From contig NZ_CP114904.1 of assembly GCF_027497215.1 (NCBI RefSeq), forward strand, positions 1,240,001 to 1,304,000: a stretch of DNA of 64,000 bases, read 5' to 3'. Shown piece after piece: positions 22,321 through 43,714 of the stretch. This DNA comes from Micromonospora sp. WMMD812. GTDB taxonomy: Bacteria > Actinomycetota > Actinomycetes > Mycobacteriales > Micromonosporaceae. A program made the position numbers and the translations under genes. Below the pieces are notes generated by a model that ran no database searches, was not told where the DNA came from, and was given only the letters and a program-made list of their open reading frames with translations. Each line of letters begins with the position of its first letter. Position 1 is the first letter of the stretch.

Positions 22321-23229
22321 TCAGGGGGTCGGCCGCTGGCCGGGGATCTCGAGGATCGCGGTCAGGAACCGGGACTGGTCGTCGCGGGGCGCGGGGTTGA
22401 CGATCCGGATCCACGACCCGTCGTCGAAGAAGATGGTGGACGGGAACTGCACCAGCCCGGCCACGCCCCGCTCCGAGTCGACGCGAGCCACCCGGCTGCG
22501 CGGCACGCTCCACAGCACCCGCGGCTGGCGCCGGTCGGGGCGGTCCGGGTCGGGGCGGGGGCCCATCCGCAACAGGTGCAGGTGGGTGTCGGTCACCGCG
22601 AGCGGGGTGCCGGTGTACCGCTCGAGGAAGAGCAGCAGGCTGCCCGCGAGGGTGGCGAGGTCGCCGCTGAAGACGTACCGGCGCCGGTAGGCGATCTCGG
22701 CGAGCTGGTCGGCCAGCGGGCGGTACCGGCTGAGCCGGAACAGTGCCCGGAACGCCTCCTGCTCCTCGGTCAGGGGGACCGGTTCCCGCTGCGCCGGCTG
22801 GTGCGGCGGCCCCGGCTCCGGCGTCGCCTCCTCGGGCAGGCCGGCGGCGACGGCGGCGGCCTTGCCCGGCAGCAGCAGGACGCCGGCGGCCAGCCGCACC
22901 GGTGTCATGACCGCGTCGACCCAGACCAGCGGGTTGACGATGTTGAGCAGACCGAACAGCGCCCGGGGGTCGAGCGCCTCGGCCATCTCGCTGGACATCC
23001 GGTCGGCGAGCTGGCTGCCGGCGCGGTGCGTCTCGGGCGCCCGGACCGGGGCGAGCCCGACGTAGCGCAGCTCCTGCTCGGGAACCAGCGGCGCGACCAG
23101 GGCCCGTTCGGGCTCGTCGCTGCCGCGGAACTCCTCGCGCAGCTCGCGGGCCTTGTCTCGGGCGGCCCGCGCGCCGCCGAGCATCGCGTCGGTGAACCGA
23201 CCGAGCCGACCCCGCTCCCCTGACGTCAC
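22321..23229 (-). CDS. Hypothetical protein with PH-like C-terminus, ESX-module partner
   Basis: A 302-aa protein I cannot name. Residues 1-35 are helical and basic. About 90-130 is a hydrophobic membrane-associating segment (LVWVDAVMTPVRLAAGVLLL). About 165-300 reads like a PH-type barrel (YTGTPLAVTDTHLHLLRMG, then VLWSVPRSRVARVDSERG and FDDGSWIRIVNP). GTG 23229 is set by GAGGAGG. It lies 20 bp downstream of the WXG-type effector gene in the same direction, so it may be its immunity or chaperone partner; that is inferred. Confidence 0.65.
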   Translation of the reverse strand: MTSGERGRLGRFTDAMLGGARAARDKARELREEFRGSDEPERALVAPLVPEQELRYVGLAPVRAPETHRAGSQLADRMSSEMAEALDPRALFGLLNIVNPLVWVDAVMTPVRLAAGVLLLPGKAAAVAAGLPEEATPEPGPPHQPAQREPVPLTEEQEAFRALFRLSRYRPLADQLAEIAYRRRYVFSGDLATLAGSLLLFLERYTGTPLAVTDTHLHLLRMGPRPDPDRPDRRQPRVLWSVPRSRVARVDSERGVAGLVQFPSTIFFDDGSWIRIVNPAPRDDQSRFLTAILEIPGQRPTP

Positions 23230-23249
23230 GCCGTACCTCCTCGACGGGC

Positions 23250-24311
23250 CTAACGACCCGCCGGCTGGTCGGCAGGCGGCTGCCCGAAGACATTCTGGTC
23301 GATCCAGTCGGCGCCGTCCTGCACCGCCTGGCCGACCTGGTCGCTGACCAGGTCCGCGCCGGGCACCGAGAGGCCGGAGGTGAGCGCGAGCGTCCCCCAG
23401 GTCACGCCGTGGACGACCGAGTTCGGCACGTTCCAGGGCAGGTTGGTGGCCCAGTCGCGGGCGATCACCCGAGCGCCGTCGGTGACGCCGTGCGCCCGCA
23501 GCGCGGCGGCCCGGTCGAGGGTGCTCATGTCGAACGGCGAACCCGACTTGCCCAGCTTGTAGGTGCCCTTCGTCGGGTCGGTGACCTTGTGGTACCACTT
23601 GTCGGCCTTGCCGGCCGCGCGCCGCTTGTCGGCGTACTTCGCGCCGGCGCGCAGCGCCTTCTGCTTGTCGACCAGCTTGTCGAGGTGGCTGCGCAGCTTA
23701 CGCAGGTAGAGCAGCACCCGCTGGAGCAGCCTGATCACCTTCTGCAGGTGGGTGGCGAGCGGTCGGATGACCTTCAGCGCACGGGTCACCGCGATCATGC
23801 CCCGGGTCACCGCCAGCCCCACGCCGGCCGCCCAGGAGGCCCCGGCGGTGAACGGCGCCATGAGCAACGCGGTCACCAGCGTGACCAGCAGGAAGTTCAC
23901 GAACTCGACGCAGAGGTCGACCAGCACGTCGTGCACGGTCTGCAGGCCGTCGGCGACGCCCCGCAGGTACTCCGCGGTCGCGGCGAACTGCTCGGCGAGA
24001 TCGAGGAGCTGCTGCTCCACCTCGGCCATGCGCCGGCCGTACGCCTCACCGGCGGGCGAGCGCCACCCGACCTGCGCCGCCTCCCGGGTGCCACGATGGC
24101 CCTGTGCCAGGTCACGGATCTGGCCGGCGAGCGCGTCCCACTCGGCGGCCTTGGCGCGCAGGGCGGCGGGCTCGCCGTCGACCATGTCGACCAGCTGGAT
24201 GAGTGGCCAGGCCAGGGTGCGGCAGACGCTGTCGACCGCGTCCTGCACACCGGAGAGCGCGTTGTCGAGGCCGTTCCACAGTTGCACGGCGCTGCCGGCC
24301 GGCCCGCTCAT
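23250..24311 (-). CDS. WXG-type (type VII/ESX) secreted effector candidate
   Basis: A 353-aa protein with a helical WXG-like N-terminal hairpin (about 50-125; turn at VGWRSPAGEAYGRRM). A hydrophobic stretch follows (about 135-175: VNFLLVTLVTALLMAPFTAG, VGLAVTRGMIAV), then a very basic coiled region (about 185-235). The C-terminal 110 residues (YHKVTDPTKGTYKLGKSGSPFDM...) look like a separate folded domain. This layout fits polymorphic toxins exported by ESX systems, but no catalytic motif was recognised. Its start overlaps the EspC-like gene as ATGA. Confidence 0.7.
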   Translation of the reverse strand: MSGPAGSAVQLWNGLDNALSGVQDAVDSVCRTLAWPLIQLVDMVDGEPAALRAKAAEWDALAGQIRDLAQGHRGTREAAQVGWRSPAGEAYGRRMAEVEQQLLDLAEQFAATAEYLRGVADGLQTVHDVLVDLCVEFVNFLLVTLVTALLMAPFTAGASWAAGVGLAVTRGMIAVTRALKVIRPLATHLQKVIRLLQRVLLYLRKLRSHLDKLVDKQKALRAGAKYADKRRAAGKADKWYHKVTDPTKGTYKLGKSGSPFDMSTLDRAAALRAHGVTDGARVIARDWATNLPWNVPNSVVHGVTWGTLALTSGLSVPGADLVSDQVGQAVQDGADWIDQNVFGQPPADQPAGR

Positions 24312-24640
24312 CGGGCCATCCCGGACTGGATCGCCTTGAACCCGGAGTCGATGTCCTGCTCGTTGCGCTCGTACGCGTCGACCGTGTCGGAGAGCGCCGC
24401 GGCGACCCGGCCGAACGCGGCCTGCGCGGCGCGGAACAGCTCCTGGCCGCCGGTGACCTGCTCCGCGTACTTGTCACGCAGCATGTCGCTGGCGAACGGC
24501 AGGTGGCCGAAGGCGTCCGACGGCACGTCGCCGGCCGAGGCGAGCTGACCCTCCAGCGCGGCGAGCGAGCTGCCGACCTGCTTCGCGGCGGTCTCCAGTC
24601 GACGGACCGCCTGCACGTCGACGTCGATATCCGGTGGCAT
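24308..24640 (-). CDS. EspC-like ESX substrate/partner
   Basis: A 110-aa all-helical protein of the ESX-1 secreted EspC type (PF10824, by resemblance). The two-helix layout is broken near residue 45-50 by HLPFASDM. YERNE near the C-terminus fits the YxxxD/E type VII export signal. ATG 24640 is set by GGGGGAGGAA. It is the first gene of a three-gene unit and its stop overlaps the effector start (ATGA), so the two are probably made and exported as a complex. Confidence 0.75.
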   Translation of the reverse strand: MPPDIDVDVQAVRRLETAAKQVGSSLAALEGQLASAGDVPSDAFGHLPFASDMLRDKYAEQVTGGQELFRAAQAAFGRVAAALSDTVDAYERNEQDIDSGFKAIQSGMAR

Positions 24641-24734
24641 GCCGTTCCTCCCCCGTGTGTCCGGCGCACCGACGATACGATTCCCCGGCCACCGGGCACC
24701 ACCCCGGTACCACCGTCCACGGGGGAGGAATCTC

Positions 24735-25154
24735 ATGACTGACCCGATGTCCGCGTTCGACGCGCTCGCCGGACGGATCGCCGACATCGAGCGCCGGTTC
24801 GCCGGCCTGCGCGACGACCTGGCCGAACTGTCCGCCACCGGGACCGACGAGAACGGGCTCGTGTCGGTGACCGTCGACGCCACCGGTGGGCTCACCGGCC
24901 TCACCTTCGCGCCGACCGCGCTGCGTGCCGGCACCGAAGGGCTGGCCGAGCTGGTGCTCGAGGCGTACCGGCGCGCCCGCACGGCCGCCACCGAACAGGT
25001 CGAGGAGCACACCGAGGGGCTGGACGCCAAGCTCGGCGCCGGGCTGAGCGACCTGTTCGGCACTCCGGGCGACTTCTCGGCGATGGGCCGCCTCGAGGAG
25101 ACCATCAGCCGGCTCGGGCGGCTGGACGGCCGCCTGCCCGGCTCGCCCGCATGA
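24735..25154 (+). CDS. YbaB/EbfC-type DNA-binding family protein
   Basis: A 139-aa protein with the YbaB layout: a helix (about 5-35), a central sheet (GLVSVTVDATGGLTGLTFAPTALRAG, about 44-69), then a long helix (LAELVLEAYRRARTAATEQVEEHTEG). YbaB-like genes often accompany ESX loci in actinobacteria. ATG 24735 follows GGGGGAGGAA. It is divergent from the EspC-like gene and coupled by ATGA to the next gene. Confidence 0.75.
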   Translation: MTDPMSAFDALAGRIADIERRFAGLRDDLAELSATGTDENGLVSVTVDATGGLTGLTFAPTALRAGTEGLAELVLEAYRRARTAATEQVEEHTEGLDAKLGAGLSDLFGTPGDFSAMGRLEETISRLGRLDGRLPGSPA

Positions 25155-25894
25155 CCTCGCCGACGTGGCCGCAGATCGTCACGCGGCTACGGGACACCCT
25201 CACGGCCTGCGACCGCGACACCGACCTGGAGCTGGCCGCCGGGCCGCGCGCGATGCGGCTCCTGGTCCGTCGCGAGGTGGTGCGGGTGGTCTGCCCGGGC
25301 TACGACGAGGCGCGCCTGACCGCGCTCGGCTGGCAGCGTCCGACCGGCGAGGCCGGCTGGTGGTACGAGACGCCGCGCACCCCGGAGCGGCTGGACTGGC
25401 TCAGCATGTTCGTCGCCCGCACCGCGGCCGAGGTGCTGACCGGTGACCCCGGCGCGCTCTCCTGCCGGCCGGTGCCACCGGCCGCGGAGCCCGGCGGACC
25501 GGTGCCGGAGCCGCCGGTGGTGGAGCCGCCGGTGGTGGAGCTGCTCGCCGCGGCCGCCGACCGGCGGGACCTCCCCGGCTACCTCGGGGTGCTGGCCGGC
25601 GCGACGGTCTGCGTCCCCCTGGCGGGTGAGCCGGCGGAGGACGGCGACTTCCCGTGGACGGTGGTCGGCGACGCGGCCGGCGCGCCGCTGCTGCCGGTCT
25701 TCACCTCCCCCGGGGTCCTCGCCGCGTTCGCCGGGGAGGGCGTGCCGTTCGTCGCGCTGCCCTGCGCCGAGCTGTTCGAGGACTGGCCGGACGCGTCCTG
25801 GGGGCTGGCGGTGGACCCAGGCAGCGCCCGGGCGGTCGCCCTGTCGGCGCCGGCCCTGGCCGCGCTGATCGCGACCAACGTGCCAGCCGGGTAA
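25151..25894 (+). CDS. SseB/TY-Chap-like protein of the ESX module
   Basis: A 247-aa protein in two parts joined by a Pro/Val/Glu repeat linker (about 117-135, twice PPVVEPPV-like). The N-terminal part (RLRDTLTACDRDTDLELAAG..., WWYETPRTPERLDWLSMFVARTAAEVL) resembles T7SS-associated TY-Chap domains. The C-terminal part (ATVCVPLAGEPAEDGDFPWTV, LLPVFTSPGVLAAFAGEG, GLAVDPGS) is SseB-like. Such proteins are proposed chaperones or immunity factors. The ATGA overlap with the YbaB gene indicates coupled expression. Confidence 0.65.
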   Translation: MTSPTWPQIVTRLRDTLTACDRDTDLELAAGPRAMRLLVRREVVRVVCPGYDEARLTALGWQRPTGEAGWWYETPRTPERLDWLSMFVARTAAEVLTGDPGALSCRPVPPAAEPGGPVPEPPVVEPPVVELLAAAADRRDLPGYLGVLAGATVCVPLAGEPAEDGDFPWTVVGDAAGAPLLPVFTSPGVLAAFAGEGVPFVALPCAELFEDWPDASWGLAVDPGSARAVALSAPALAALIATNVPAG

Positions 25895-34364: not shown

Positions 34365-34515
34365 CGCAGGTCCCGCCGGCGGTCCCGGCAATCGGACTCC
34401 CGGCGCTTCGTGGTGACAAGCGGTCAGCGGGGCAGGAACACTGACAGGGCGGATGTTCCCCCGCCGTCCGAATAGGCTCTAATGAAGGCCTCCCCGCCCC
34501 CAGGAGGTATCCCCC

Positions 34516-34776
34516 GTGGCGAGCGTCGCCGAGCTCAAGGCAGCCATCGACGTTGCACTGCAACAGATCGGCGACGGCCAGAGCGCCGTCCAGGCCGCCG
34601 GTGAGAAGTTGGCCGAGGCGCAGCAGACCCTCGCCGGCGCGCTGGAGGGCAGCGGGCACGAGACGGTCGAGGCGGCTCAGGCGTCGCTGACCCAGGCCAG
34701 CCAGGAGCTGGAGGAGTGCCTCGCCGCGACCCTCGTCGCGGTCGAGCAGGCGCAGCTCTACGTCTCGGCCCTCTGA
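34516..34776 (+). CDS. Small helical-hairpin protein, WXG100-like without WXG (FtsK operon gene 1)
   Basis: An 86-aa protein predicted to be two long helices (about 3-45 and 50-85) joined by GALEGSGHE. Size and layout resemble WXG100 substrates, but the W-x-G turn is replaced by GSG. The ends have no Cys and no YxxxD/E signal. GTG 34516 is set by CAGGAGG. It opens a four-gene operon whose third gene is an FtsK/EccC-like ATPase, which makes a substrate or scaffold role plausible but unproven. Confidence 0.75.
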   Translation: MASVAELKAAIDVALQQIGDGQSAVQAAGEKLAEAQQTLAGALEGSGHETVEAAQASLTQASQELEECLAATLVAVEQAQLYVSAL

Positions 34777-34784
34777 GGCTCGCC

Positions 34785-35963
34785 GTGTCGATCGTCGAGG
34801 ATGTCGGCGCGCAGGTCCGCGCCGCCGCCGAGGAGCTGCCGCTCGGCCTGCTCGGGCAGGCGCTGGAGAAGTTCGGGCTGGCCAGTGAGCGGCTGCGGTG
34901 GGTGCGGCAGGAGTCGGCTAACCCGATGGGGGTGCCGGAGCTCTCCGCCGCCACCGAGCACGCCGAGACCGCCGGGTACGCGCTGCGCCTGGCCCAGGAG
35001 CAGCTCTCGGCGTACCTGGCCACGATCGGGCTGGGCGGTGGGGACGGGCCGCCGCCGGCGCGGCCGGAGTCGCGCGAGCCCGGCCATGACGCGCCCCGGG
35101 CGGCGGCCCCGGTCGCCGTGCCCGCCGAACCGGCCGAGCAGGTCCGGCTGCGCCGGTGGTGGTCGGTGCGCGTGGCCGAGCTGACCGCCGGGCCCGAGGG
35201 CGCCGACGAGCCGGACGAACGGATCGGCGACTCCGCGGAGCTGCTGCGCCGGGTGGTGCGCGGGGTAGGTGCCGGAGACCGGGACCGACTCCGCACCGAG
35301 CTGCGCCGGGCGCACGCCGATGTCGGGCTGGGGCTGGCCGCGATCGCCCCACCGTTGCTGCGCGGCCTGGCCGGGGAGCTGCTCGGGCACCCGCCCCGGG
35401 CCGAGGACCTGGGCCGGCTGCGCGGCGAGCTGGACGGCCGGGTGCGGGCCCTGCTCCCGGGGCTGCCGGCGCCGGTGCTGGAGACGCTGCTGACCCGGGT
35501 GTGCCGGATGCCCCCACCGCGGCGCTCCGGGGAGCCGCCGCACGCCGCGGATGCCGCGGTGACCGCCGGTGTCCTCACCGGGGTGCTGCTGGCCCGCCTC
35601 GGCCGGGACCTGCCCGCCGACGCCGGCCGGGCGGCCTCCGGCGGCGGCGCGGGGACGGCCACGGGCTACGGCGGACGGGCAGCCACCGGAGACGCCGGCC
35701 GGGCGGGCCGCGATGCCGACCGGGCGCGGGCGTCCGGGCCGGACCGGACGGGCGGCGGCGAGCAGCCCCCGGCGACCGGCCCGACGGGCTCCGGGACGGG
35801 CCGGACACCGCCGCGGTGGTCGGGCCTCGCCTCCGCCCGGCAGGCCGCGGCCGCCGTCGGGACGGACGTCCGAACGCTGTCGGGCAGCCCGGTCGCCGGT
35901 CGGGTGCCGCCACGGCCGGGCCCGTGGCACGACGCCCCGCGGCGCCGGGACTCCCATGGCTGA
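34785..35963 (+). CDS. Hypothetical protein of the FtsK operon (gene 2)
   Basis: A 392-aa protein. The N-terminal 85 residues are helical (VSIVEDVGAQVRAAAEELPLG, then TEHAETAGYALRLAQEQLSAYL) and could pack with the gene-1 hairpin. A linker (about 87-120) leads to an all-helical domain (about 125-285, WWSVRVAELTAGPEGADEPDERIGD...). The last 110 residues are disordered, rich in Gly, Ala, Arg and Pro. GTG 34785 is 8 bp after gene 1, and the end overlaps the FtsK start by 8 bp. No family recognised. Confidence 0.75.
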   Translation: MSIVEDVGAQVRAAAEELPLGLLGQALEKFGLASERLRWVRQESANPMGVPELSAATEHAETAGYALRLAQEQLSAYLATIGLGGGDGPPPARPESREPGHDAPRAAAPVAVPAEPAEQVRLRRWWSVRVAELTAGPEGADEPDERIGDSAELLRRVVRGVGAGDRDRLRTELRRAHADVGLGLAAIAPPLLRGLAGELLGHPPRAEDLGRLRGELDGRVRALLPGLPAPVLETLLTRVCRMPPPRRSGEPPHAADAAVTAGVLTGVLLARLGRDLPADAGRAASGGGAGTATGYGGRAATGDAGRAGRDADRARASGPDRTGGGEQPPATGPTGSGTGRTPPRWSGLASARQAAAAVGTDVRTLSGSPVAGRVPPRPGPWHDAPRRRDSHG

Positions 35964-38625
35964 CCGGCGCACCCAGCTGGTCACCCGGGTCCGGGACACG
36001 CTCGCCGAGGCGCTCGGCGCCGCCCGGACGCGGTCCTCGGCCGCCCAGGCCGACCTGACCGCCGGACGGGAGCGGCTCGCCCGGGTACGCCGCGCCGCGG
36101 CGGCCGTGCCGGATCGGGTCGGCGCGGAGCGGGACCGCCGGCTGGCCGAGATCGACGCGCGGCACGCCGCCCGGATCGCCGAGCTGGCTCGCCGGGCCAC
36201 CGACGCCGCCCGCCGGGAGGCGCCCGGCGCCGCCGCCGACGAGTGGCCGGGGTGGCGGCCCACCCCCGCCGACCGGGGCGAACCGGCGGGCGCGCTGCGG
36301 ATCGGCACCGTCCGCATCCCGGGCGCCGAGCCGGTGCCGGCGCTGGTGCCACTGCTCGACGCCGGGCACGTCCACCTCGCCGGAGACGACCGGGAGGGCT
36401 GCGACGCGGTGGTGTCCGCGCTGCTGCTGCGGGCGGTCGGCCGGGCCGGCCCCGGCGCCGTGCGGTTGGTCGGGTACGACCCGGAGCACCTCGGCAGCGG
36501 CCTGGCCGGCTTCGCGCCGCTCGGCACGGCCGGGCTGCTGACGTTCGTCGGCCCGGGCGGGCTGGGCCGGCTCCTCGACGACCTGGTGGAGCAGATCCGC
36601 CGGATCAACGAGACCGTGCTCGCCGGCGAGCACGGCTCGCTGCGCGAGCTGGCCGCGGCGACCGGCCGACGCCCGGAACCGTGGCGGGTGGCGGTGCTGC
36701 TCGGCGGTGACGAGCTGTCGCGGCACGAGCGCGGCCAACTCGACCGGGTGGTGCGCACCGGCGCGGCCTGCGGGGTGCACCTGGTGGTCCGCGGTGTGCC
36801 GCTGCCCGACGACCCCACGGTCACCCGGGTGGTCGCCGAGCCGGACGGCGCCCGCGTCGGCGGACCGCCCGGCCTGCCGGTACGCCTCGACCCGCCGCCG
36901 CCCGCGACGCTGGTCACCGAGACCTGCCGGGACGTGGCCGCCCGGGTCAACGCCGGCCCACCACCCACCCCGTTCACCGACCTGCTGCCGCCGCCCGAGC
37001 AGATGTGGCAGGAGGACTCCGCCATCGGGCTCACCGCGCCGATCGGCGAGGGACCGCACGGCCGGCCGGTGCGGCTGACGCTGGGCGACTACCCGCCGCA
37101 CGCGCTGATCGGCGGACCGTCCGGCACCGGCAAGACCAACCTGATCTTCGCGTGGATCGGCGCGCTGGCCGCCCGGTACTCCCCCGCCGAACTGGAGTTC
37201 TACCTGCTGGACTTCAAGGAGGGGGTGTCGTTCGCCCGGTTCGCGCAGGGCCGGCGCGACCCGAGCTGGCTGCCGCACATGCGGCTGGTGGGCATCAACG
37301 TCAACACCGATCGGGAGTTCGGCCTGGCGCTGCTGCGGTTCCTCGCCGAGGAGCTGCGCCGGCGCGCCGACGCGGCCAAGAAGCACGAGGTCACCAAGCT
37401 CGCCGAGCTGCGGGCGGTGGACCCGACCGGGCGGTGGCCGCGGATCGTCGCGGTGGTCGACGAGTTCCAGATGCTGCTCGCCGGCCGGGACGTGGTCGCC
37501 CGGGAGGCGGCCGATCTGTTGGAGGACCTGGCCCGCCGGGGGCGTTCGCAGGGCATCCACCTGGTGCTCGCCTCGCAGGACGTCCGCGGCATCGAGGCGT
37601 TGTGGGGGCGCCCGGCCCTGGTCGCCCAGTTCACGCTCCGCATCGCGCTGCCCAAGGCGCTGCGCATCCTGGCCGAGCGCAACGACGCGGCCCAGTCGCT
37701 GCCCCGCTGGCACGCCGTGATCAACGCCGAATCGGGGCTGCCGGAGGGCAACGAGGTCGCGCGGATCCCGTCGGCCAGCGACTGGGAGACGTGGAGCGGC
37801 CTGCAGCACCGGCTGTGGCGGATGCGCCCGCAGGACGCCGCACCCGCCCGGCTCTTCGACGGCGACGCCATCCCGCGGCTGGCCGATGCCCCGGACTTCC
37901 GTGCGCTCGTCGCCGACGCCGCGACGCCACGCGGGCCGGTCGCGCTGCTCGGCGAGATCATCGACGTGCAGGCGCGCTCGGCCGTCCTGCGCCTGCCCCG
38001 GGCTCCGGGGCGGAACCTGGCGGTCCTCGGCACCCGGGTCGACGAGGCGTGCGCGGTGCTGGACGCCGCGGCCCGCTCGTTGGCCCGCCAGCACCGCCCG
38101 GGAAGCGCACGGTTCTCCATCGCCTGCCTCGACCCGGACGCCGATCCGGTCGCCCGCTCCCTCTACGAGGACCTCGCCGACAACGCGGCCTGGTACGACG
38201 AGGAGACCGTGCCGGAGCTGATGGCGGAGACCGCGGAAGGTCTCGCGGCCGGGAGCGATCCGCACTACCTGCTGCTGTTCGCGGTGGACGCGGCGGCCGG
38301 ATCGCTGGCCGCCCCGGCCGGGCGGCGTACCGGGCTGGAGCAGTTGCGGCGGATCCTGCACGACGGGCCGGAGCGGCGTACGCACGTGCTGGCCTGGTGG
38401 CGGGGCGTGGCCCGGATGCGCGCCGACCTGGGCGGGCCGGCCGCGCGCACCGACCAGATCGGCGCGTGGGTGGCGCTGGACACACACGGCGGCGAGCTGG
38501 GTTCCTCGCTCTACCCCGGCACCGGCGGCCCGGACTGGTACCCGAGGCCGTGGCGGGGGCTCTTCTTCGACCGGGCGGTGCACCGCACCGGACAGGTGAT
38601 CATCCCCTATGGACCGTCCCGATGA
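35956..38625 (+). CDS. FtsK/SpoIIIE-domain ATPase, EccC-like three-module layout (gene 3)
   Basis: An 889-aa ATPase. A coiled coil (about 1-95) is followed by three RecA/FtsK-like modules. The first (about 125-310) is degenerate: its P-loop position reads AGDDREGCDAVV, with no GKT. The second (about 375-615) is complete, with Walker A GGPSGTGKTN near 388, Walker B IVAVVDEFQM near 498 and the FtsK-type GIHLVLASQDVRG. The third (about 660-850) is degenerate again (GRNLAVLGTRVDEACAVL). Three modules recall EccC of type VII secretion, but there the first is the active one. No transmembrane segment is seen; gene 4 may anchor it. Confidence 0.88.
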   Translation: MADRRTQLVTRVRDTLAEALGAARTRSSAAQADLTAGRERLARVRRAAAAVPDRVGAERDRRLAEIDARHAARIAELARRATDAARREAPGAAADEWPGWRPTPADRGEPAGALRIGTVRIPGAEPVPALVPLLDAGHVHLAGDDREGCDAVVSALLLRAVGRAGPGAVRLVGYDPEHLGSGLAGFAPLGTAGLLTFVGPGGLGRLLDDLVEQIRRINETVLAGEHGSLRELAAATGRRPEPWRVAVLLGGDELSRHERGQLDRVVRTGAACGVHLVVRGVPLPDDPTVTRVVAEPDGARVGGPPGLPVRLDPPPPATLVTETCRDVAARVNAGPPPTPFTDLLPPPEQMWQEDSAIGLTAPIGEGPHGRPVRLTLGDYPPHALIGGPSGTGKTNLIFAWIGALAARYSPAELEFYLLDFKEGVSFARFAQGRRDPSWLPHMRLVGINVNTDREFGLALLRFLAEELRRRADAAKKHEVTKLAELRAVDPTGRWPRIVAVVDEFQMLLAGRDVVAREAADLLEDLARRGRSQGIHLVLASQDVRGIEALWGRPALVAQFTLRIALPKALRILAERNDAAQSLPRWHAVINAESGLPEGNEVARIPSASDWETWSGLQHRLWRMRPQDAAPARLFDGDAIPRLADAPDFRALVADAATPRGPVALLGEIIDVQARSAVLRLPRAPGRNLAVLGTRVDEACAVLDAAARSLARQHRPGSARFSIACLDPDADPVARSLYEDLADNAAWYDEETVPELMAETAEGLAAGSDPHYLLLFAVDAAAGSLAAPAGRRTGLEQLRRILHDGPERRTHVLAWWRGVARMRADLGGPAARTDQIGAWVALDTHGGELGSSLYPGTGGPDWYPRPWRGLFFDRAVHRTGQVIIPYGPSR

Positions 38626-39287
38626 ACGAACCGGTGACCAGTGAGACGTACGCGGCCCAGGTGCGCCGGCTGGCCGACCTGACCGCCCGGGTACACGCCC
38701 AGCGCGAGGAGGCACGCACCTGGTACGAGCGGCAGTGCGCCGCGGCGGACCGGGCGGTGGCCGAGGCCGACGAGCAGGTCCGGCACGCCGAGCAGGAGCT
38801 GGCCGATGCCCGTGAGCTGCAGGAGCGGGTGGACGCGGAGGCGGCCCACCTGTGGCAGCAGTTGCGCGGGCGGCTCGGCGTCGGCGGACGACGGCTGACC
38901 GGCCCGCCCGCGCCGGCGGCGGGCGCCGAAGGCGATCCGGTGCTGCTGCTGCACCGGGTGCGGGAGCTGCTGGACCGGACCCGGCAGCCGGGTGAGCTGC
39001 CCGGGTCGGTCAACCCGATGCTCGTGCTCTGCGGGGCGGCCGGCGCCGTGCTGGCGTACGGCCTGGGGATGGGCGCCCGGGCGGCCGGGGTCGGGTACGG
39101 CGGCGACCTGGCGGTCGGGATGCCGGTGCTGGCGCTGGTGGTGACGCTGCTCGGCCCGCTGGTCGGCCTGGTGCCGGCGAAGGTGCTGGCCGACCGGCGG
39201 CACGCCGTGCTCGGCCCGCGCCCGATCACCGTGGTGCTGGTCGCCGGAGTGCTCACCACGGCGTTGCTCCTGGTGCTCGGCCGCTGA
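38622..39287 (+). CDS. Coiled-coil membrane protein of the FtsK operon (gene 4)
   Basis: A 221-aa protein. Residues about 10-85 form a long coiled coil (RRLADLTARVHAQREEARTWYERQCAAADRAVAEADEQ). About 125-220 contain three hydrophobic membrane segments (PMLVLCGAAGAVLAYGLGMG, VGMPVLALVVTLLGPLVGLV, PITVVLVAGVLTTALLLVLG). Its ATG overlaps the FtsK stop as ATGA, so the proteins are made together. It is a likely membrane anchor for the ATPase ring. No family recognised. Confidence 0.75.
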   Translation: MNEPVTSETYAAQVRRLADLTARVHAQREEARTWYERQCAAADRAVAEADEQVRHAEQELADARELQERVDAEAAHLWQQLRGRLGVGGRRLTGPPAPAAGAEGDPVLLLHRVRELLDRTRQPGELPGSVNPMLVLCGAAGAVLAYGLGMGARAAGVGYGGDLAVGMPVLALVVTLLGPLVGLVPAKVLADRRHAVLGPRPITVVLVAGVLTTALLLVLGR

Positions 39288-40825: not shown

Positions 40826-41116
40826 TTACCGGGCGCTGCCGTCGGCGCCGCCGTCCTGCTTGCCCGGGGTCGCGCCGCCGTCGGCCGGGCCCTCGGCGCC
40901 ACCGTCGGCGCCGCCGTCCTGCTTACCCGGGGTCGCGCCGCCGTCGGCCGGGCCCTCCGCGCCCTGGTCGGCGCCGCGATCGAAGCCGCGCTCGGCGCCC
41001 TGGTCGGCGCCACCGTCCGCGCCACCGTCGCGCTGGCCGGGGGTCGCGCCGCCGTCGGCCGGACCTTCGGCGCCGGCGGCGCCGCTGGTGGTCATGTCGT
41101 CGTCGTTGAGTGCCAT
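40826..41116 (-). CDS. Gly/Ala/Asp repeat protein (BatC-like), possible oxygenase substrate
   Basis: A 96-aa protein. A short leader (MALNDDDMTTSGAAGA) precedes three near-identical repeats, EGPADGGATPG followed by KQ or QR and DGGADG, separated by GADQGAERGFDRGADQGA. It has no hydrophobic core, Cys or signal peptide. I recall similar sequences annotated as BatC in Micromonospora, without known function. ATG 41116 follows AGGGAGCACCG. It is the first gene before a JmjC oxygenase. The leader plus repeated-core layout resembles a modified-peptide precursor; Asp-Gly motifs could also bind calcium. Confidence 0.75.
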   Translation of the reverse strand: MALNDDDMTTSGAAGAEGPADGGATPGQRDGGADGGADQGAERGFDRGADQGAEGPADGGATPGKQDGGADGGAEGPADGGATPGKQDGGADGSAR

Positions 41117-41313: not shown

Positions 41314-42075
41314 ATGAAGCGGATGATCCTGGTGGGCACCTCCGGCTGGCAGTACCGCGACTGGCGGGAGCGGTTCTATCCGGCGGGGCTGCCGCAGCGG
41401 CTCTGGCTGGAGCACTTCGCCGAGCGGTTCGCCACGGTGGAGGTCAACAACGCGTTCTACCGGCTGCCGGAGCGGGACACCTTCGCCGCCTGGCGGGCGC
41501 GGACCCCGGACGACTTCTGTGTGGCGGTGAAGATGAGCCGCTATCTGACCCACGTCAAGCGGCTGCGGGAGCCGGCCGAACCCGTGGCCCGGTTCCTCGA
41601 CCGGGCCACCGCGCTCGGCGACCGGCTCGGCCCGGTGCTGCTGCAGCTGCCGCCTAACCTGCCCGCCGACGTACCGGCGCTGGACGCCACGCTGCGCCTG
41701 TTCCCCGCCGACGTCCGGGTGGCGGTGGAGCCGCGCCACCCGTCCTGGTGGACCGCGGCCACCCGGACGGCGCTGGAGCGGCGGCGGGCGGCGCTGGTCT
41801 GGGCGGACCGGCGTGGCCGGCCGGTCGCCCCGCTGTGGCGGACCACCGACTTCGGTTACCTGCGGCTGCACGAGGGGCGGGCCCGACCGCACCCGCGCTA
41901 CGGGCGGGCGGCGCTCGCCTCCTGGGTGCGCCGCGTCGCCGACACGTTCGGCGACGTGCCGGCGTACGTCTACTTCAACAACGACCCGGGCGGCGCGGCC
42001 GTCGTGGACGCGACCGTCTTCGCCGACCTGGCCCGCCACGTCGGGCACCCGGTGGGCCGGGTGCCCGTGGCGTGA
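41314..42075 (+). CDS. DUF72 domain protein (first copy)
   Basis: A 253-aa TIM-barrel-like DUF72 protein. It opens MILVGTSGWQYRDWRERFYPAG and has the conserved FATVEVNNAFYRLP (about 46), KMSRYLTHVKRL (about 76), LGPVLLQLPPNL (about 106), VAVEPRHPSWW (about 136) and YVYFNNDPGG (about 228). DUF72 has no proven activity. ATG 41314 or 41323 could start it. It ends at a strong hairpin facing DUF2267. A second, different DUF72 lies 0.8 kb downstream. Confidence 0.9.
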   Translation: MKRMILVGTSGWQYRDWRERFYPAGLPQRLWLEHFAERFATVEVNNAFYRLPERDTFAAWRARTPDDFCVAVKMSRYLTHVKRLREPAEPVARFLDRATALGDRLGPVLLQLPPNLPADVPALDATLRLFPADVRVAVEPRHPSWWTAATRTALERRRAALVWADRRGRPVAPLWRTTDFGYLRLHEGRARPHPRYGRAALASWVRRVADTFGDVPAYVYFNNDPGGAAVVDATVFADLARHVGHPVGRVPVA

Positions 42076-42841: not shown

Positions 42842-43714
42842 TCAGTCGGTGCCGAGCAGCCCGGCGAGGGTGGCGGCGTTGGTCTGTGCGTAGTCGCGGT
42901 AGCAGTTGTTCATGAGCACGTGTGTCCGCTCGGTGGAGTCGGCCAGCTCGCGCAGTCGGGGCGCCCAGTCCCGCAGCTCACGGTCGGCGTAGCGGTAGCC
43001 GAACTTCTCGTGGATGTCGGTGCTGGTCCACTTGTCGCTGTGCCCGTGGAAACGCACCACCGCGAGGTCCGCGGTGGCGGCCAGCACCGGCGGCACCGAC
43101 GAGCGGTGCCCCTGCGGCATGTCCACGCAGACGTACGGCAGCCGGTGCTTGCGCAGGAACGCCAGCGTCTCGTCGCGGTTGGCCCCGTCGAACCAGGAGG
43201 CGTGCCGGAACTCGTAGACCGGGCGCAGCGGGTCGCAGCGCTTCGCCACCTCGAGCAGGTACTGCTTGTTCTCCCGCTTGATGGTGAACCAGGGCGGGAA
43301 CTGGAACAGCAGGGCGCCGAGCTTGCCCGCCTCGACCAGCGGGTCTAGGGCGGAGAGGAAGCGCGTCCACACCTCCTCGTATGCCTGGGCGGGCAGGGCG
43401 TCCGGGTAGATGTTGCGCTTGTCCGTCTCCGGGCGCAGGTCCTTGTAGAGGGCGCTGACCTTGGTCGGGTGACCGGTCAGCAGGCTGAACGCCTTGATGT
43501 TGAAGGTGAAGCCGGCGGGCGTGCGCTCGGCCCACAGCTTCGCGGTCCGCTCGGCCGGTGGCGAGTAGTAGGTGGCGTCCACCTCGACCAGTGGGAACTG
43601 GCGGGCGTAGTACGCGAGCCGCTTCTCCGGCGTGTCGGCCGTCTGCGGGTACCAGCCGGAGTCCAACAGGGTCCGGTCGGTCCAGGAGGCGGTGCCCACC
43701 TTGATGTCACCCAT
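42842..43714 (-). CDS. DUF72 domain protein (second copy, different subfamily)
   Basis: A 290-aa DUF72 protein longer than the copy at 41314. It opens IKVGTASWTDRTLLDSGWYP and has FPLVEVDATYYSPPAERTAKLWAERTPAGFTFNIKAFSLLTGHP (about 41-83), GALLFQFPPWF (about 140), RPVYEFRHASWF (about 167) and VLMNNCYRDYAQTNAATLAGLL at the end. Low identity to its neighbour argues against a recent duplication. ATG 43714 has only a weak ribosome site. Confidence 0.9.
   Translation of the reverse strand: MGDIKVGTASWTDRTLLDSGWYPQTADTPEKRLAYYARQFPLVEVDATYYSPPAERTAKLWAERTPAGFTFNIKAFSLLTGHPTKVSALYKDLRPETDKRNIYPDALPAQAYEEVWTRFLSALDPLVEAGKLGALLFQFPPWFTIKRENKQYLLEVAKRCDPLRPVYEFRHASWFDGANRDETLAFLRKHRLPYVCVDMPQGHRSSVPPVLAATADLAVVRFHGHSDKWTSTDIHEKFGYRYADRELRDWAPRLRELADSTERTHVLMNNCYRDYAQTNAATLAGLLGTD

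Follow-up and report, generated by a model that had tools for sequence, protein, structure and literature searches.

What does an EccC-like motor do when it is encoded with two helical-hairpin proteins and a membrane protein in a unit of four genes? The question is raised by gA, gB, gC and gD, on the plus strand at positions 34516–39287 of a 64,000-nt window (the whole stretch of DNA analyzed, whose coordinates are used here) of Micromonospora sp. WMMD812, which has a 7.13-Mb genome in a single contig. A first-pass annotation had proposed a type VII-derived or independent pump for protein or DNA. An EccC-related motor with a membrane partner is indeed encoded, however, DNA is now disfavored as cargo and any pumping is conjectural. 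We put the probability that the unit is a stand-alone chromosomal EccC-derived motor handling proteins at about 0.55.

The motor gC and its kinship to EccC

The gC gene (35956–38625) encodes an 889-aa ATPase of the FtsK/EccC type, characterized by Pfam, NCBIfam, hydropathy, an AlphaFold model and Foldseek. Its one Pfam FtsK_SpoIIIE match (8e-20) covers residues 359–542, and the model (pLDDT 89.9) has a long N-terminal helix (residues 2–88, 35959–36219) and three alpha/beta modules. Module 1 (residues 95–335, 36238–36960) is a Rossmann module without P-loop that matches the EccC DUF; module 2 (residues 340–640, 36973–37875), delimited by Pfam, profile and structure comparison, is an ATPase with both Walker motifs; module 3 (residues 655–889, 37918–38622) is again a Rossmann module without P-loop. 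Such a three-module FtsK-type ATPase, with Walker A and B in the middle module only, had been described in the first-pass annotation, and the Pfam match, model and alignment agree. Walker A (GGPSGTGKTN, residues 386–395, 37111–37140) and Walker B (IVAVVDEFQ, residues 497–505, 37444–37470) keep their residues across 50 aligned rows (K393 in 47, D502 in 50 and E503 in 48), whereas modules 1 and 3 show no P-loop at the equivalent positions in the model or alignment.

The best NCBIfam match of gC is TIGR03924 (EccC; 3e-25, 89 bits vs. a cut-off of 509), and Foldseek places 4nh0 first (E 1.3e-31), with EccC/EssC making up the first eight hits. By structure and profile comparison gC agrees with EccC when its modules are taken as DUF-ATPase1-ATPase2, and the middle active module is then probably in the position equivalent to the EccC active ATPase; therefore what had been described as an active module misplaced relative to EccC is probably the right one. 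Unlike EccC of ESX, gC lacks ATPase 3, has no adjoining EccB gene and stands on a separate tree branch, and whereas ESX motors are anchored by membrane helices of their own, hydropathy predicts no span in gC, which begins with helix 2–88.

Placement among ATPases was by profile scores of the gC middle module and by a 44-domain maximum-likelihood tree, midpoint rooted and with several long branches. In the tree gC lies outside the EccC branch and groups with WXG100-linked and plasmid ATPases, apart from EccC and FtsK (split support 87/75). Judged by sequence, gC is closer to EccC than it is to FtsK, and its closest kin are ATPases of plasmid or CoCoNuT-like operons with WXG100-type proteins. 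It also has the features of the WXG100-linked middle-active class, namely three modules, Walker motifs in the central one only and sequence kinship. PADLOC matches to mad8 and SspH were rejected, covering only the shared motor part of gC.

The hairpin pair and the membrane partner

The 86-aa gA (34516–34776) is assigned as a hairpin protein from its sequence pattern and a weak WXG100 match; Gly45-Ser46 forms the turn where WXG would stand, and the C-terminal tail Y82xxxL86 is conserved. Among gA relatives, Pfam matches are most frequent to WXG100 (10/25 at E ≤ 0.1, best 5e-5). DUF6244 is a further weak match of these relatives and leads to a separate locus of the genome.

The 392-aa gB (34785–35963) had been described as helical and disordered. 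This holds for its ordered, all-helical domain (residues 117–285, 35133–35639; pLDDT mostly >90) and the disordered tail that follows, but residues 1–80 (34785–35024) are a second hairpin, with model helices at 3–16, 20–45 and 50–80 (pLDDT about 65–78). A Foldseek search of the gB model against the PDB gave no match at E ≤ 0.001, and a Pfam search found nothing convincing. Where Micromonosporaceae have gB, Pseudonocardiaceae encode after gA an 83-aa hairpin that stands by itself (hairpin 2), and profile comparison indicates that the gB N-terminus is its homolog: hhalign aligned the gB 1–85 profile with that of hairpin 2 over 81 columns (probability 95, score 43.7), vs. at most 15.6 in 60 column shuffles and 13.4 for the reversed profile. 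The gA and hairpin 2 profiles scored 48.1 (shuffles at most 14.1), while gA and gB matched each other weakly (18.9 over 81 columns). Six control pairs from the coiled coils of gD and gC scored 11–17; together with the shuffles and reversed profiles, these rule out chance or a coiled-coil artifact behind the kinship of hairpin 2 to gB and gA.

The unit closes with gD (38622–39287), 221 aa with a coiled coil at about residues 1–85 (sequence inspection, weak coiled-coil family matches) and three spans predicted at about 133–151, 163–181 and 202–220 (hydropathy only). This architecture had been proposed at the outset, and the predictions support it.

Distribution, neighborhood and relatives

A search with gC confirmed at least 553 relatives, and locus counts refer to the best 80. 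These come from 26 genera of Micromonosporaceae, Glycomycetaceae, Pseudonocardiaceae and Actinopolysporaceae plus one metagenome-assembled genome, so the unit is not due to chance; two of the genera are represented solely by hairpin-free loci. Two distinct hairpins lie directly upstream of gC in 64 of the 80 loci, paired small helical hairpins being a feature of the WXG100 superfamily; none has a single hairpin, and three begin inside gC. A gene stands at the gD place in 75 of the 77 loci with room, with three predicted spans in 57, two in seven, one in two and none in nine. Flanking genes vary between groups, therefore the gene unit is conserved as such.

Among the genomes of the order, 38 of 121 carry a gC relative at E ≤ 1e-30, among them all 11 listed genus genomes and all 15 listed family genomes; in one of the latter (G063) the relative reaches 40% identity only and belongs to the paralogous line described below. 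The phylum sample gave 7/296 at E ≤ 1e-40, comprising the genome itself, one congener, one other member of the order and four genomes from outside it, among them G293 with a 688-bit relative; of four loci representing the others, two lacked a usable gene call for the ATPase in the profile scoring. Twelve records of a phage collection matched, covering at most 44% of gC among the matches listed.

All four open reading frames are borne out by translation, and each is also predicted as a gene by a basic caller designed for high-GC DNA. Their close packing, as first described, is confirmed (an 8-bp gap between gA and gB, overlaps of 8 nt between gB and gC and 4 nt between gC and gD), and a Shine-Dalgarno-like AGGAGG read from the sequence (34502–34507, plus strand) ends 8 nt 5' of the gA start codon GTG. 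Upstream lie a short PIN/NYN-like gene (weak matches) and a divergent Clp ATPase gene, and downstream a convergent JmjC/cupin gene. In agreement with the first-pass annotation, the four genes and the two flanking genes tested (PIN/NYN-like, JmjC) gave no Pfam match to EccB, EccD or EccE; nor did they match mycosin, and for mycosin, EccD and EccE no genome-wide family search was made. EccB is not encoded with the unit either: the genome has a sole match to it, located at 4.117 Mb and thus 2.8 Mb distant.

Elsewhere in the window, about 9 kb upstream of the unit, a type VII effector-type cluster (22321–25894) encodes a 353-aa protein that exceeds the WXG100_2 cut-off and falls just short of the WXG100 and PPE cut-offs, a partner of 110 aa for which Pfam gives no match, and one protein each resembling YbaB and SseB; a cluster of similar appearance is found at 4.90 Mb of the genome. 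Two DUF72 genes lie close together on opposite strands (41314–42075 and 42842–43714), and a short reading frame of GGADGGA-type repeats (40826–41116) is possibly low-complexity or non-coding.

Relatives of gC are found in other settings. Four loci in genomes of the order, three of one family and one of another (L052, L053, L075, L055), have gC relatives beside Hsp70 genes and encode one or two hairpins with them; L052 and L053 also encode TPR-repeat proteins (Pfam). Just one of 29 matching plasmid records covers >80% of gC; five of the plasmids were inspected for gene content, and four more served for comparison. A Caballeronia plasmid has a gC homolog (35% over 340 residues) in a CoCoNuT-like setting with VWA, WXG100, CARF, kinase and AAA-domain genes, a Rhodococcus plasmid encodes a gC-like ATPase with Hsp70, TPR and GrpE genes, another Rhodococcus plasmid encodes one beside TerD genes, and a Deinococcus plasmid encodes one with two WXG100-like proteins below cut-off. 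A Helicobacter sp. plasmid locus (L184:5137–9539) has consecutive genes for a WXG100-like protein, a WHH/colicin-type DNase, a SUKH immunity protein, a 77-aa protein and a gC-like ATPase. A conserved gC paralog with a destroyed Walker A (L060:4957–7521, at 5.0 Mb of the genome; also L050 and L068) adjoins a three-span partner of its own, with FtsH and GTP cyclohydrolase I genes nearby; in L060 and L068 the Walker B Glu is replaced by Asn, and this paralog is possibly a motor turned scaffold. A few genes past the gC paralog and its partner, genome G098 has a gene for an 87-aa protein weakly resembling gA (L067:2693–2956, 16.9 bits), a likeness that the hairpin profiles did not confirm. The minus strand of L062:6152–10504 (1.2142–1.2185 Mb of the genome) encodes a protein of 1450 aa in which four FtsK-like modules follow a caspase domain at the N-terminus (PF00656, 2.8e-12); of these, modules 2 and 3 group with ATPases 1 and 2 of the genome's EccC.

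The class to which gC appears to belong, three-module, middle-active and WXG-partnered, has already been published as a prediction, as has its role in secretion (PMC3482391; PMC11090510). The former describes, under “Mobile versions of T7SS,” a solo WXG protein with a distinct YueA-like ATPase of three HerA/FtsK domains, only the middle one active; ATPase description and WXG-type partner are as in our unit, but the relevant section names no membrane partner or second hairpin. The latter reports an EssC-like ATPase with a WXG100 pair in Type III-A CoCoNuT operons, crediting also Anantharaman et al. (2012). As excerpted, that cassette resembles the unit in its span-less ATPase with N-terminal coiled coil and three modules, of which only the central is predicted to be active, in its two hairpins, one of them lacking WxG, and in a coiled-coil partner gene. 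In contrast, the unit is chromosomal in every genus member examined, has no adjoining VWA/CARF genes, and has three predicted spans in its partner and an added helical domain in gB. SffA/SmeA of Streptomyces, compared by description, likewise pairs an FtsK-like protein with an adjoining small membrane protein, however, the description consulted mentions no hairpins (PMC4255298). Extra FtsK/SpoIIIE genes of M. lupini listed as eccC in the portion seen of PMC4182475 may include a gC counterpart. The chromosomal actinobacterial form, the membrane partner gD and the gB fusion were not found described in the literature searched, and the relevant sections of PMC3482391 and PMC11090510 name no actinobacterial core-genome form, three-span partner or gB fusion.

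What the unit may do

In the reading that we prefer, gC would form the motor, a hexamer by analogy, in which a single working ATPase module, flanked by two that lack P-loops, would make up an arrangement equivalent to DUF-ATPase1-ATPase2, without the membrane helices and ATPase 3 of EccC, and its cargo would be protein rather than DNA. gA and the gB N-terminus would pair as WXG100-like hairpins, comparable to EsxB/EsxA, and the pair may act on gC as substrate, adaptor or trigger; with its additional domain behind the hairpin, gB has the plan of a PPE protein. The gD coiled coil would dock on the N-terminal helix of gC and hold it at the membrane. Assembly in ESX systems is driven by the EsxB signal, which binds to ATPase 3. 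With no ATPase 3 and no YxxxD/E motif, hairpin recognition must therefore differ here, and the conserved gA tail is a candidate recognition element. For comparison, the CFP-10 tail binds EccCb in ESX, according to the excerpt of PMC3935865.

A number of observations weigh against this reading. By Z-score the middle module is closest to FtsK DNA motors (29.7), followed by TcpA (26.8) and EccC chains (≤26.3), and module 1, taken alone, scores best with EccC ATPase 2 (44), ahead of the DUF (38) and ATPase 1 (33); therefore the register rests mainly on module 2. The match of gA to a five-sequence WXG100 profile is weak (score 18.5, probability 4.7), and hairpin 2 and gB do not match it. In Pfam searches, WXG100 was matched by 1/12 hairpin 2 sequences and 0/14 gB sequences. 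There is no W-x-G turn in gA and no WxG within gB 1–85, the C-terminal YxxxD/E (HxxxD/ExxhxxxH) pattern reported for WXG100 proteins in the text seen of PMC3935865 is missing from gA, and gA scores 15.8 bits, below the curated WXG100 cut-off of 27.3; WXG100 membership of gA is therefore not claimed. Neither hairpin is present in 13 of the 77 loci with room, which make up a paralogous line of Actinoplanes type consisting of just gC and gD, and the two other gC paralogs of the genome also stand without hairpins. Not every hairpin-linked ATPase is close to gC: with the gC middle-module profile, a Ligilactobacillus ATPase with small neighbors reaches 91 and is placed by the tree on the side of EccC and FtsK, and a Rothia ATPase, uncertain in type and counted with EccC for the comparison, reaches 121. 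The four-gene operon encodes no channel protein, and all nine Pseudonocardiaceae/Actinopolyspora loci have a 113–144-aa gene without predicted span at the gD place, which together with the Hsp70-linked relatives keeps an intracellular role open.

Short of even odds, yet to be taken seriously, is a true minimal secretion system, in which the motor exports gA and gB with any partners through a pore of gD oligomers or a borrowed ESX channel. The kinship of gC to EccC and the membrane protein gD in Micromonosporaceae favor it, as does the fact that no signal peptide is apparent on gA or gB by inspection of the sequence, no predictor having been run. EccB occurs in 34 of the 38 genomes of the order with a gC relative, but this enrichment (70/121 overall) is confounded by descent, and 36 of the 70 EccB genomes lack a gC relative at E ≤ 1e-30 and four genomes (G010, G024, G054, G092) have gC without EccB. 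Since the two occurrences only partly overlap, the motor is not simply an ESX part. Three short spans would also make a poor pore, and the Pseudonocardiaceae counterpart of gD has none.

It is doubtful, although a good deal points that way, that the unit is an intracellular protein-remodeling machine, in which hairpin adaptors bring clients that gC unfolds or disassembles without export. The span-less gC, the likewise span-less Pseudonocardiaceae counterpart of gD and the relatives linked to Hsp70, TPR and GrpE genes are consistent with it, and a Clp-type unfoldase gene adjoins the unit here and in 34 of the 80 stretches. However, the Hsp70 linkage occurs in relatives outside the gC clade, the Clp neighbor is missing in the other 46 stretches (some of them short), and spans are predicted in gD across most of the clade. 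Somewhat less probable again is an EccC-derived motor that has left secretion to become a hairpin-pair-guided remodeling machine, with a membrane-bound form (three-span gD), a fully soluble form (Pseudonocardiaceae) and kin in the Hsp70/GrpE-linked versions.

A DNA pump of the FtsK/TraB/TcpA type with unrelated hairpin genes is improbable: the hairpin pair is linked to gC, the first eight Foldseek hits are EccC/EssC, a Pfam scan of gC found no FtsK gamma or helix-turn-helix domain, and neither the C-terminal gamma domain nor the N-terminal spans of FtsK are seen by Pfam, hydropathy or the model. The ordinary FtsK/TraB reading, one of the outcomes that the first-pass annotation said would undo the system idea, was set aside because gC lacks the DNA domains and is akin in sequence to EccC and WXG100-linked ATPases; even so, gC has the motor fold in common with FtsK, which heads the VIA list. 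A defense module like the CoCoNuT-linked cassette, suggested by the Caballeronia plasmid cassette and the TerD-linked Rhodococcus locus, is equally improbable: the unit is present in all 11 genus genomes examined, it lies here on a contig of 7.1 Mb and not on mobile DNA, and no nuclease or effector gene is recognized beside it.

Middle-active EssC-like ATPases with WXG100 partners have so far been predictions, called mobile or CoCoNuT parts in the sections consulted of the two papers above. Here a compact four-gene version is found on the chromosomes of culturable soil and marine actinomycetes, and it makes testable what the smallest working EccC-type motor is and whether WXG100-type hairpins are cargo or adaptors. 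If the remodeling reading were true, WXG100-type pairs would serve a general motor as adaptors, and type VII secretion would be one of its uses.

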